Positions 9,539 through 13,419 of a stretch of DNA of 16,041 bases are shown one piece after another (position 1 is the first letter of the stretch; each line of letters begins with the position of its first letter). A program made the translations under genes and the position numbers. The stretch comes from an uncultured Roseburia sp. (GTDB lineage Bacteria; Bacillota; Clostridia; Lachnospirales; Lachnospiraceae), in the NCBI GenBank assembly GCA_945928585.1, contig CAMENQ010000011.1:1-16041 (forward strand), written 5' to 3'. The notes beneath the pieces are model-generated. The model had not been told where the DNA came from. It did no database searches and worked only from the letters and a program-made list of their open reading frames with translations.

Positions 9539-11185
9539 TTATTCAGTTATCGTTATCGTAATAACATATATGGTACTTGAAATGCAGGCTGCCTCACCTG
9601 ATATGCGGAATCCTCCCGTTGCAGGATAATTACTATAATTTATTTCGCTGCTGTTAAGATAATTGTCTATGGTTACATTTCCCTCACATTTAACATATGC
9701 CGTTATGCTGCTGTTTCCTGCTGCAAGCTGGCTGTTTACATAGTTGCTGTAGTCAGATACTGTAGAATATATGGTGCCATACTCCTTAACCGCAAAGTAA
9801 TCATAATTGTACTTTGTTCCATTGCAGGCATTTCCATATGTGTATACATGATCCTGTCTCATCTGTGCATCTGTTATATTAAAATAGTTGTAGTATATGC
9901 TTCCACTGTCCTGTGGCTGTCCGTTTACTGAAACAAGAGGATCATCCCATGTACAGTCAATCTGATACCATTCATTATCGAGGCATACCGCATTCCATGC
10001 ATGAGCCTGTCCGTTTCCTGTTCCAGTCACTATGTCACATTTTATTCCAAGTAAATCCATACAAAGCTTAAAGCTTTCTGCATATCCCTGACATACTGCC
10101 TTTTTCTTTAAGAAAACTCCCTCAGGATGGAAATTGTATTCTTCCATTGCATTTAAATTTTCACATGCTTCTATGTTATATCTGCAGTTTGAAACAATAT
10201 AATCATGTACTGCCTTTTCTCTTTCAGGATCAGTGCTGTAATTTTTCATTACATCATCAATAAGAGGCTTTACTACCGCAAATATCTGTTTCTGTGTAGC
10301 ATCAAGTTTTGATGTATCTCCGTTGACATAGGCTAAGGCATAACCATAATTTGCACTGTCAGGCGATACATATATCTTTTTTGTTGAAGAATTGTTTGAT
10401 GTGTCTGTGTACTCTGTCTTATTGTCATTAACAATATCCTTATTCTGCTCAGATATCTGGGAATTTGCATTTCCTACGCTTACTGTTGCCGTAGTCTCTG
10501 TCTCCACTTTCACAGGTGCCTTGGTGGTACTTTGAGTAGTATTTCCTGTGTTTCCTGTTGATGTACCTGAACTTGAAGAGCTGCTGTTTCCTGTTGTTCC
10601 TGCATTTGAGGAACTGCTACCTGTTGTGCTTTGGTTCGAAGTACTGCTGCTACCTGTTGTACTTTGATTTGAAGTACTACTGCTTCCCGTTGTACTTTGA
10701 TTTGATGTACTGCTGCTTCCTGTTGTGCTTTGGTTTGAGGTACCACTACTTCCCGACGTACTTGAATTTGAGGCATTTCCATTTCCTGATGTATTTGGTT
10801 TTGAAGTGTTTCCGTTTCCTGAGCTGCCGGTACTTGTGTTATTTTTATTTCCCTGTGTTTCCTTATTATTGGTACTGCTTTCTGATGCATTATTTGTTGT
10901 ATTATTATTTTCCTTCTTATCAGCAGCATCACTCACCAAGGATGTGTTTTCCTCAGAATCGGTTTTATCTTCTTTTTCACCGGTTTCAGCAGTTTCCTTG
11001 TTTTTTGATGTATCCTTATTTTTATCATCATTGTCTGTTTCTTTGTTGTCATTCTCTGCAACTGCTTTTTTGTTTTCTTCGTAACTGCTTTTCTGCGTCG
11101 AAGATTCCTCATTACTGCCACATCCTGTTATTACAAATGCAGCTGCTGCCGCTGCAATAATAAATCTAATGTTTTTTCTTCTCAT
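9539..11185 (-). CDS. Secreted lipoprotein with low-complexity stalk and transglutaminase-like domain
   Basis: A 548-residue surface lipoprotein. It begins MRRKN, a hydrophobic stretch and lipobox VITGC, with the lipid-bearing Cys at 22. Residues 23-225 are a stalk rich in Ser, Thr, Asn, Gly, Lys and Glu, including four 11-residue repeats of GSSSTSNQSTT type (145-188). After a linker, about 300-440 is a transglutaminase-like (papain-fold) domain with catalytic Cys365 in KAVCQGYAESF, His395 in QAHAWNAV and Asp410 in YQIDCTWDD; the triad is intact. The C-terminal 100 residues look like a small beta domain. The start chosen is ATG 11185, because GGAG stands 6-7 nt before it; an ATG at 11197 adds four residues but has no ribosome-binding site. 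Such domains act as proteases, peptidases or crosslinkers at the cell wall; the substrate is unknown. It is transcribed alone with a structured leader. Confidence 0.88.
   Translation of the reverse strand: MRRKNIRFIIAAAAAAFVITGCGSNEESSTQKSSYEENKKAVAENDNKETDNDDKNKDTSKNKETAETGEKEDKTDSEENTSLVSDAADKKENNNTTNNASESSTNNKETQGNKNNTSTGSSGNGNTSKPNTSGNGNASNSSTSGSSGTSNQSTTGSSSTSNQSTTGSSSTSNQSTTGSSSTSNQSTTGSSSSNAGTTGNSSSSSSGTSTGNTGNTTQSTTKAPVKVETETTATVSVGNANSQISEQNKDIVNDNKTEYTDTSNNSSTKKIYVSPDSANYGYALAYVNGDTSKLDATQKQIFAVVKPLIDDVMKNYSTDPEREKAVHDYIVSNCRYNIEACENLNAMEEYNFHPEGVFLKKKAVCQGYAESFKLCMDLLGIKCDIVTGTGNGQAHAWNAVCLDNEWYQIDCTWDDPLVSVNGQPQDSGSIYYNYFNITDAQMRQDHVYTYGNACNGTKYNYDYFAVKEYGTIYSTVSDYSNYVNSQLAAGNSSITAYVKCEGNVTIDNYLNSSEINYSNYPATGGFRISGEAACISSTIYVITITITE
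10622..10753 (-). repeat. Four tandem 33-bp repeats in the lipoprotein stalk
   Basis: Four in-frame copies of a 33-bp unit encode GSSGTSNQSTT once and GSSSTSNQSTT three times; a fifth, degraded copy follows (GSSSSNAG). Units differ at synonymous third positions (for example AAC/AAT, GGA/GGT, TCA/TCG). The protein repeat is therefore conserved while the DNA has drifted, yet the units remain similar enough to change copy number by slippage. Confidence 0.9.
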
Positions 11186-11204
11186 GCTAATCTCCATTCT
11201 GAAG

Positions 11205-11398: not shown

Positions 11399-11440
11399 TA
11401 CGCAAAAACGTACGCAAAACTTTATATACGCAAAACTTTA
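11399..11440. repeat. Direct repeats (TACGCAAAA...) between divergent promoters
   Basis: Three copies of TACGCAAAA begin at 11399, 11411 and 11427; the last two extend to the identical 14-mer TACGCAAAACTTTA. A partial inverted copy (TTTTGC, 11447-11452) abuts the -35 of the plus-strand promoter. Position just upstream of that promoter suggests binding sites for a regulator of the Panacea operon, of the lipoprotein gene, or of both. Confidence 0.6.
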
Positions 11441-11452
11441 GTGATATTTTGC

Positions 11453-11481
11453 TTGACGTAACTATACATTAAACATATACT
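11453..11481 (+). promoter_or_regulatory. Sigma-A promoter of the Panacea-domain operon
   Basis: TTGACG (11453-11458), a 17-nt spacer and TATACT (11476-11481), each 5 of 6 bases from consensus. Start would be near 11488, giving a leader of about 95 nt. That leader holds a 7-bp hairpin (TCACTTC/GAAGTGA, 11540-11558) followed by a T-rich stretch and then the AAGGAGG ribosome-binding site. Confidence 0.75.
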
Positions 11482-11582
11482 ATAATTAATGTATTAAATC
11501 AGTACATTATATTTTCAAAAAAGTGTATGGCATTTGGGGTCACTTCTATCGGAAGTGAAATTATTTTAAGGAGGGTGTCAAA

Positions 11583-12236
11583 ATGAGAGATGTATATGAT
11601 TTTGCTAAATTCTTCATAAAAAATGGCGCTGATTCTATGCCAAACACATATGACGGAAATATGAAATTACAAAAATTATTAGTTTTGGCAGATTTAGCTA
11701 ACATTGCAGAGTATGGAGAGCCCTTATTTGACGAGCAGGTCCTGGCTTTTAAAAATGGATGTGTTGTTGAAAAGGTTCGCTTAAGATATAAGAATGATTA
11801 TTTTGGATTTAAGCACGATAGCGATGCTTACCAACCGGATTTTTCTGAAAATGAATATATTATTCTTAATATGATTATGGAAATATTTGGAAATGCTTCT
11901 GCAAGAGAATTATCTGACATTAATCATACTTTTAATTTTTGGAAAGTTGCTTTTGATAATGGTACCAGTTGTACCGGATATCATAATAAAGAACTTTCGG
12001 TTGTTGATATGATGTCACAACAAGATGACATAAATCGAATGCGGGAAATTATTTCTGCATACAAAGAAACGTCTACTGATGTAACTGCAAGTGAAACTAT
12101 TAATGGAGTAACTTTTTATTATGATGGATTTACATTAACAGACGAACTGCTTGAACAGTTAGAAAACTTTTCATTATCGGCTGACGATGACACATATAGT
12201 GTTTACTTAGATAATGAAAGGCTGGTGATCTATTAA
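11583..12236 (+). CDS. Panacea-domain (DUF4065/SocA-like) protein, probable antitoxin
   Basis: A 217-residue soluble protein. Residues 1-160 match the Panacea/SocA-like fold: NMKLQKLLVLADLANIAEYG (26-45), then PLFDEQVLAFKNGCVVEKVR (47-66), the counterpart of the family's LFDE..AW.YGPVV signature, and a helical second half. Family members such as SocA and PanA neutralise varied toxins encoded beside them. Residues 165-217 (ETINGVTFYYDGFTLTDELL onward) form an extra beta-rich tail that is not part of the core domain as I know it. The start has AAGGAGG about 8-9 nt upstream. Its stop TAA shares one base with the ATG of the next gene (TAATG), so the two are translationally coupled. A strong promoter and upstream repeats suggest tight control. 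Family confident; toxin-antitoxin role inferred. Confidence 0.8.
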   Translation: MRDVYDFAKFFIKNGADSMPNTYDGNMKLQKLLVLADLANIAEYGEPLFDEQVLAFKNGCVVEKVRLRYKNDYFGFKHDSDAYQPDFSENEYIILNMIMEIFGNASARELSDINHTFNFWKVAFDNGTSCTGYHNKELSVVDMMSQQDDINRMREIISAYKETSTDVTASETINGVTFYYDGFTLTDELLEQLENFSLSADDDTYSVYLDNERLVIY

Positions 12237-12568
12237 TGAATTTTACTGAAGGTCACGGAGTTCTTGGCAGAGTGCGATTTGTCGATGGAGAAATCCCTGC
12301 TTATGATAGAACATATCTTGTAATAAATGTATCAACTGAGTATATAGAAGTATTAAATGTTTCCTCAATAATGGGCAAAGAAAGAAAACTGGCTTTCCCG
12401 ACAAATGAGAGACTGAGAACATATAATCCACCGTTTTTGAAACCATCTTTTGTAAAACTAGATTCACTTACCAAAGTTCCAAAAACTGACTGGAGTAACT
12501 TGACAGTACTTAATGGTGGTAAAACTCTGGATGCCAATGAACTGATGAGAATAAAAGGATTACTCTAA
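12236..12568 (+). CDS. MazF/PemK-like small protein, candidate toxin partner
   Basis: A 110-residue protein, mostly beta strand by appearance. GRVRFVD (11-17), YDRTYLVINVSTEYIEVLNV (23-42) and KPSFVKLDSLTKVP (69-82) resemble the barrel strands of MazF/PemK endoribonucleases, where a substrate strand is followed by a PS.V.LDQ..tV segment. The resemblance is distant and the usual N-terminal G-x-I/V-...-G-x-E-Q-xG loop is not preserved, so activity cannot be assumed. Immediate TAATG overlap with the Panacea gene supports a functional pair, as in PanAT modules. Its own stop overlaps the ATG of a 49-codon gene in the same way. Alternatives are an unrelated small beta-barrel adaptor, or an accessory to the membrane peptide that follows. 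Confidence 0.55.
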   Translation: MNFTEGHGVLGRVRFVDGEIPAYDRTYLVINVSTEYIEVLNVSSIMGKERKLAFPTNERLRTYNPPFLKPSFVKLDSLTKVPKTDWSNLTVLNGGKTLDANELMRIKGLL

Positions 12569-12717
12569 TGCGTAATGCTTTGTTAACAGTTACAAAATCA
12601 ATCAAAAAAGCAACCTTAACTTTGGTCGGTGCGGTTGCTTTTTTGATGTTTATTTTTATCGTTGCAATCGTCCTGTTAAAACTAATTAGAGGGGATTCAA
12701 AAACGAATTCCCTCTAA
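12568..12717 (+). CDS. Small single-pass membrane protein, 49 aa, third gene of the Panacea operon
   Basis: A short frame starting MRNALLTVTKSIKK, followed by an uninterrupted hydrophobic stretch of about 22-24 residues (16-39, LVGAVAFLMFIFIVAIVLL in its centre), then LIRGDSKTNSL and a TAA stop. The basic N-terminal flank and single helix fit a small inner-membrane protein. Its ATG overlaps the previous stop as TAATG, and AAAGGA lies 8 nt upstream. The same junction type occurs between the first two genes, which argues against chance. The frame also contains a terminator-like inverted repeat, so it could instead be a non-coding tail that happens to be open. In Panacea systems some toxins are small membrane proteins, so this may be the toxin or a membrane-acting helper; that is inference. 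Confidence 0.55.
   Translation: MRNALLTVTKSIKKATLTLVGAVAFLMFIFIVAIVLLKLIRGDSKTNSL
12601..12647 (+). terminator. Strong inverted repeat / terminator inside the 49-codon frame
   Basis: A perfect 15-bp stem, ATCAAAAAAGCAACC (12601-12615) with GGTTGCTTTTTTGAT (12633-12647), and a 17-nt loop. The T run within the right arm, and further T's after it, fit an intrinsic terminator. It falls inside the 49-aa frame, so full-length mRNA for that frame would need readthrough or a translating ribosome that melts the stem. Confidence 0.65.
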
Positions 12718-12719
12718 TT
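12684..12719. terminator. Bidirectional terminator between the Panacea operon and the response regulator
   Basis: A 15-bp stem (12684-12698 with 12705-12719, one G-U type pair) and the loop AAAAAC. It overlaps the stop codon of the 49-aa frame and lies 4 nt beyond the response-regulator stop on the other strand, where TTAGTTTT follows. It probably ends both converging transcripts. Confidence 0.7.
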
Positions 12720-12723
12720 GTCT

Positions 12724-13419
12724 CTATACCTTAAATCTGTACCCCACACCCCATATAGTTTCAATATACTGCGGCTTTGACGTATCAAACTCTATCTTTT
12801 CCCTAATCTTTTTTATATGCACTGTAACCGTTGCTATATCTCCTATAGAATCCATATCCCAGATTTTCTGGAACAGTTCCTCCTTTGAATAAACATGGTT
12901 TGGATTAGATGCTAAAAATGTAAGCAAATCAAATTCCTTTGCAGTAAGCAGCTTCTCCTCTCCGTTTACATACACACGCCTTGCTGTTTTATCTATGCGT
13001 ATGCCGCGTATTTCAATAACGTCATTTTTTGGAATATTGTTGCCTACAAGTCTTTCATATCTTGCAATATGTGCCTTTACTCTTGCCACAAGTTCACTTG
13101 GGCTGAAAGGCTTTGTAATGTAGTCATCTGCTCCCAGTCCAAGACCTTTTATTTTGTCTATATCATCTTTTTTTGCAGATACCACTAATATAGGAGTATT
13201 CTTTTTTTCCCTTATACCTTTGCATATCTCAAATCCATCTACATTTGGAAGCATTAAATCCAGTATAAATAAATCAAAATTCTTTTCTAATGCCTTTTTT
13301 AATCCTGTGTCACCTTTAGTCTCTATCTCCACCTGAAAGCCCGCCATCTCCAGATAGTCCTTCTCCAGTTCTGCTATACTTTCTTCGTCTTCTACTATCA
13401 GTATCCTTTTTTCTTCCAT
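12724..13419 (-). CDS. OmpR/PhoB-family two-component response regulator
   Basis: A 231-residue DNA-binding regulator. Receiver domain 4-118: acidic pocket Glu10-Asp11-Glu12, phospho-acceptor Asp54 in LFILDLMLPNVDG, Ser81 and Lys103 in ITKPFSPSEL. Winged-helix domain about 133-231 with LLTAKEFDLLTFLASNP, VTVHIKKIREKIE and the terminal wing IETIWGVGYRFKV. The start ATG has AGGAGG 8-9 nt upstream. That site, and the first 35 codons, lie inside the 3' end of the histidine-kinase gene, so the two are one operon with translational coupling and form a cognate pair. The signal and target genes are not evident. All key residues are intact. Confidence 0.95.
   Translation of the reverse strand: MEEKRILIVEDEESIAELEKDYLEMAGFQVEIETKGDTGLKKALEKNFDLFILDLMLPNVDGFEICKGIREKKNTPILVVSAKKDDIDKIKGLGLGADDYITKPFSPSELVARVKAHIARYERLVGNNIPKNDVIEIRGIRIDKTARRVYVNGEEKLLTAKEFDLLTFLASNPNHVYSKEELFQKIWDMDSIGDIATVTVHIKKIREKIEFDTSKPQYIETIWGVGYRFKV

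Follow-up and report, generated by a model that had tools for sequence, protein, structure and literature searches.

A predicted PanAT-type toxin-antitoxin pair shared by gut Firmicutes and phages, and the relic terminator that probably mimics its third gene

In the window, by which we mean the whole 16,041-nucleotide stretch of uncultured Roseburia sp. DNA analysed here, the genes panA and panT are predicted, with good probability, to form a type II toxin-antitoxin operon that moves horizontally and belongs to the PanAT kind. The first gene, panA (11583..12236, + strand), encodes a Panacea antitoxin-like protein of 217 aa, and the second, panT (gene 2; 12236..12568, + strand), a 110-aa protein of MazF/Kid fold, the predicted toxin; the two are joined by a stop-start overlap and have a promoter of their own. 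PanA would bind PanT and hold it inactive, either through its C-terminal domain or through the Panacea domain, the latter serving as sensor. Were PanA removed or altered (e.g., by phage infection or by loss of the element), PanT would attack RNA and stop translation, and the growth arrest that it causes would keep the cassette in place or block the phage. Transcription of panT is predicted to end at a hairpin (hairpin 1) inside a 49-aa frame, which the first-pass annotation had counted as a third gene of the module. Assigned in this way, a widespread, uncurated pair of genes from gut Firmicutes and their phages joins the PanAT class, its domains receive testable roles, and a false third component is removed from it.

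Evidence for the pair comes from its conservation. Searches with gene 2 led to 24 loci, 19 in species genomes and five in viral contigs, and at every one a Panacea gene whose domain exceeds its cut-off stands immediately upstream, in most cases with its stop codon overlapping the start of gene 2 (checked in all 23 members of alignment A5, i.e., the window and 22 loci, and then in loci L020 and L026). In the reverse search, gene 2 follows the Panacea gene at all 19 viral loci that the Panacea alignment brought up, five of whose contigs overlap with the viral set found by gene 2. Given these two counts, the partnership of panA and gene 2 is close to obligatory in the subfamily, and the co-conservation of the two genes is far beyond chance. 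That Panacea homologues never sit beside the small genes, which the first-pass annotation named as a refutation of its proposal, is clearly not the case for the 110-aa gene, and is what we found for the 49-aa one. Three matches to gene 2 turned up in phage records, all in Mammaliicoccus phages, and phage phi6228 also carries the pair, its Panacea domain likewise over the cut-off (the upstream gene was read in phi6228 only, and in phi6223 the gene spans the start of the record). A possible third gene in phi6228, RNase R (annotated "nuclease"), was set aside as a host gene beside the prophage, which we presume from the look of its sequence. Gene 2 had no match in plasmids; the single gene 2 protein found no relative in viral contigs, where relatives appeared only when the alignment was used, and PADLOC detected no system.

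Conserved as it is in its composition, the pair is rare in the family and sits in varied places. Gene 2 occurs at E <= 0.001 in two of 397 genomes of the family, namely the window's own and one with a fragment of 51 residues, and in one of 391 genomes of the class sample, again the window's own. This fragment (L063, G195:C11:39500-43700) is 59% identical, has no upstream panA frame in the ORF list, and is a decayed copy. Among eight chromosomal loci whose neighbours differ, as judged by eye, gene 2 is 66-75% identical. G218, the sister species, lacks the window's 3.2 kb: there the genes for the tRNA nucleotidyltransferase, the APH-like protein and the response regulator lie side by side, the missing stretch being a transglutaminase gene and the pair. 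The protein encoded by the former (9539-11197, - strand), which belongs to the same inserted stretch, has a transglutaminase core and a long Ser/Thr/Gly-rich repeat linker, and no match to it was obtained at E <= 1e-30 in the three other genomes of the genus. On the viral side, where PHROGs were run on 10 proteins in eight of the 19 loci, five of the eight loci tested have an endolysin gene no more than about 1.6 kb upstream (directly upstream in L131, L138 and L140), and an integrase gene lies downstream of the pair in L134. Taken by its sequence distribution, the pair is a mobile two-gene cassette common to gut bacteria and their phages.

The Panacea identity of the first gene, proposed in the first-pass annotation, holds (PF13274, 45.9 bits, the cut-off being 25.7). 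Its predicted structure (AF2 pLDDT 91.0) consists of the Panacea domain followed by a C-terminal domain of two strands, a helix and two strands (residues 169-216), for which no named domain was matched. Against the PDB, PanA retrieved nothing in the sequence search and nothing convincing in the profile search, and the profile comparison of panT with panA likewise gave nothing. Panacea matches of 29-35% identity were seen in seven further genomes (the panA alignment excludes L020 and L026). The window's own genome (G000 contigs C139 and C206) encodes two more Panacea proteins, 331 and 358 aa long, each after a small gene; they have N-terminal CxxC motifs and a helix-turn-helix-like part by eye, and we take them to be probably of MqsRA type.

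As for the 110-aa protein, its MazF/PemK-like nature is borne out by structure prediction, which models a MazF/Kid fold, and its two matches at E <= 0.001 in the viral library are an endoribonuclease and a PemK/MazF toxin. By sequence it is far more elusive. The window protein has no Pfam or NCBIfam match, and with PF02452 there was no match at E <= 1, the cut-off not being reached, for which reason we call PanT MazF-fold and do not place it in PF02452; that model matches four of 33 members of the family, and exceeds its cut-off in L026 (28.7 against 23.1 bits). The best PHROG matches are phrog_1281 and phrog_13386, both marked as of unknown function, the latter being the match of gene 2, and 274 proteins of the protein collection, itself included, match gene 2. 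Against the PDB, the single PanT sequence found only capsid proteins (E 0.9-1.4), profile A2 found three MazF sequences at E 0.14-0.2, profile A4, built without the divergent phage row, found no chain by sequence, and L026 found MazF6 at E 0.06-0.07. The gene 2 alignments do not include L020 and L025, where the gene is broken. Elsewhere in the window's genome (G000 contigs C100 and C185) there is a MazF/EndoA-like protein of the ordinary sort, and another with a weaker likeness to PemK.

The Arg, Thr and Gln that are invariant in the MazF family have a catalytic role, and it is here that the most serious alternative arises, namely that PanT is no RNase, but keeps the MazF fold with a remodelled active site and either acts on another target or is a non-toxic partner that regulates PanA. 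In the profile-profile alignment with 16 MazF-family proteins, which is weak (probability 4%, p 0.0097), Arg25 is kept, but Met46, Asn57 and Ser77 stand where MazF has its invariant Thr, His and Gln. With these three unmatched, RNase activity of PanT is uncertain, and the family has other invariant residues instead (Ser43, Lys51, Asn57, Pro65, Pro66, Ser71, Lys74 and Asp76). Against this alternative, Arg25 and Ser43/Ser44 are kept in nearly all members, the alignment of MazF with PanT is so weak that a shift by two or three residues is possible, and the two MazF-like Panacea partners tested in print inhibit translation, according to PMC8832971. On balance we regard a non-RNase PanT as rather unlikely. 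A bolder version, to which we would give similarly little credence, adds to a remodelled MazF-fold PanT with a non-MazF target the suppositions that the PanA C-terminal domain would be a new neutraliser, that the Panacea domain would sense phage, and that the whole would be a prophage defence cassette near the endolysin.

The layout described in the first-pass annotation was partly confirmed. The three frames and the two TAATG overlaps are where it had put them (12234-12238 and 12566-12570), and so is the sigma-A-type promoter TTGACG-17-TATACT (11453..11481, + strand), a similar site being found in the closest loci. Judged from sequence comparison, this putative promoter is more than a consensus match, since TTGAC(A/G)-17-TATAAT recurs 119-138 nt 5' of the start codon in nine of the nine loci closest by gene 2 identity (L008-L016), and promoter-like matches lie within 250 nt upstream in 14 of 24 relatives. 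The upstream repeats are likewise real (three copies of ACGCAAAA at 11400..11435, equalled in 0 of 1000 shuffles); they are private to the window's locus, for ACGCAAA occurs within 300 nt upstream in 0 of 24 relatives. Just 5' of the ribosome-binding site, the leader forms a hairpin, TCACTTC/GAAGTGA (11540..11558, + strand), which is kept in close relatives: across 10 sequences the consensus stem has seven pairs, three of them with compensatory changes, and each of the seven is broken in one or two sequences. Either an RNA element or a palindromic operator would fit this hairpin. L030, where panA begins at the edge of the locus, was left out of the upstream comparison.

Could the pair instead be an inactive relic of a prophage or other mobile element? 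The locus does appear inserted, it adjoins the relic of a type I element (see below), and some relatives of the pair are broken. However, both frames are open in the window, the promoter, leader hairpin and ribosome-binding site resemble those of close relatives, and the window protein retains the conserved positions of its family, so that we hold this reading to be improbable. Where breakage does occur it is one-sided: gene 2 is broken beside an open panA in L020, L025 and G029, and no broken panA was met beside an intact gene 2 in the loci examined. In these three draft-assembly cases, which are few, the pattern is the one that a toxin and its antitoxin should leave. In G029 (L142), the open panA is 61% identical, gene 2 ends after nine residues, and it is followed by a hairpin-like stretch and a small type I-like peptide frame (MITYADLIQTG...).

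Downstream of panT the first-pass annotation fared less well, since it had set two terminators after the third frame. Hairpin 1, a predicted bidirectional terminator directly after panT (12601..12657; 15-bp stem, 12601-12615 / 12633-12647), lies within the 49-aa frame, and the terminator-like hairpin 2 (12683..12720, 16-bp stem) overlaps the end of that frame. Three bases separate hairpin 2 from the stop codon of the response-regulator gene, which runs convergently (12724-13419, - strand), and in G218, which is without the pair, a 16-bp hairpin is found at the same place; hairpin 2 is probably shared with the convergent response-regulator operon.

Hairpin 1 has a different history. Its DNA recurs at 79-98% identity in 17 other genomes of the 397 in the family, six of which have at least two matches. 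In copies from G029, G076, G111, G251, G318 and G334, the strand opposite the 49-aa frame encodes a hydrophobic, basic-tailed peptide some 40 residues long, and the strand of the frame has a promoter-like TTGACG site and a short conserved stretch that ends at the shared hairpin; the remaining copies have different peptides, or no clear peptide, opposite. The peptide frame is intact at, e.g., L060 and L076, and the peptide has six protein homologues and a weak match, below cut-off, to the NCBIfam model of a C. difficile type I toxin (E 0.0036). Rfam matched nothing in the window or in L060-L062. The type I-like element is seen at L060, L061, L062, L076, L077, L078, L080, L082, L093 and L094, with several copies in some genomes; its peptide reads MILELVGI..VISIIVTIISIRQT..NKKHQKSNR.DQS, the convergent strand carries the conserved stretch GGTGTTACCGTAAAGCAACGGTTCGCCTC with the TTGACG promoter-like site, and in L060 the peptide overlaps a short leader frame by ATGA. 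On its minus strand the window keeps the last 11 toxin codons in frame (KHQKSNRTDQS, stop); of a full element, with a toxin ORF opposite an RNA gene, only the hairpin and this toxin tail were found there. From these likenesses, hairpin 1 is the putative remnant of a type I toxin-antitoxin-like element that has decayed, and would have been its shared terminator.

The 49-aa frame (12568..12717, + strand) is the complement of this toxin tail together with hairpin 1 and the next terminator, and is most likely a chance ORF over a terminator and not a gene. A word-based search of 5.8 billion proteins, at the sensitivity of such searches, matched it to itself only; it was seen at none of the 24 loci to which gene 2 led, and tblastn over 44 related loci brought up no convincing relative (best E 0.032, within a frame of another kind in L013). 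Such a frame is easily come by, as in shuffles TG follows the A in 15% and the frame stays open for 48 codons in 6%, and the window has 39 ORFs of at least 49 aa outside its 12 likely genes, this one included. The membrane peptide of the first-pass annotation, and with it the idea of two possible effectors under one antitoxin, is therefore not supported, the three-gene module being rejected on the protein search, the locus comparison and the origin of hairpin 1. A second effector, namely a 49-aa membrane peptide under the control of PanA alongside PanT, is accordingly very improbable: TAATG coupling, an AGGA resembling a Shine-Dalgarno sequence 8 nt upstream, a segment of strong hydrophobicity (mean Kyte-Doolittle 3.2 across 19 residues) and the small membrane PanT proteins known from PMC8832971 speak for it, but the frame has no homologue in the protein collection and was seen at none of the 24 gene 2 loci, the terminator hairpin under it has relatives in a type I element, and the AGGA stems from panT's own Lys-Gly codons. 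The frame could still be translated via coupling, or be a newly born peptide. The leftover terminator of one toxin-antitoxin element can mimic a small membrane gene.

We found no paper on this particular pair in the open-licence literature, and its relation to known systems is best seen by comparison. The intact copies related to hairpin 1 resemble the convergent type I systems Fst/par, with its shared terminator (PMC7472228), and C. difficile CD2517.1-RCd8 (PMC6563280), in that a small hydrophobic basic-tailed peptide would face a promoter-like convergent stretch over a shared hairpin; unlike those systems, the window has no working locus, what it retains being the hairpin and the final 11 codons of the toxin. 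With the GepA-type ZBD-HTH-Panacea / MqsR systems (PMC2701414, PMC10440598), the pair shares a Panacea-domain antitoxin and its presence in phages of Firmicutes, but the window PanA has no N-terminal zinc-binding/HTH domain and its extra domain is C-terminal. MazEF and Kid-Kis are approached by PanT in predicted fold, in size and in an Arg at the MazF-invariant Arg position, whereas the antitoxin is of the Panacea and not the MazE/PemI kind and the MazF-invariant Thr, His and Gln are unmatched. The nearest likeness is to the RNase-type PanAT: in PMC8832971 the PanA antitoxins of Bifidobacterium ruminantium and Pseudomonas moraviensis have partners predicted to be EndoA/PemK/MazF-like, both of these PanT being toxic, rescued by PanA and translation-inhibiting in E. 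coli, and accessory third genes are given for small fractions of genomes only. As there, the locus has two genes, one for a Panacea antitoxin and one for a MazF/PemK-like partner, and the window differs in the unmatched C-terminal domain of its PanA, the PanT proteins being compared by description only. The pair is another member of the PanAT, among which MazF-like PanT proteins were already known.
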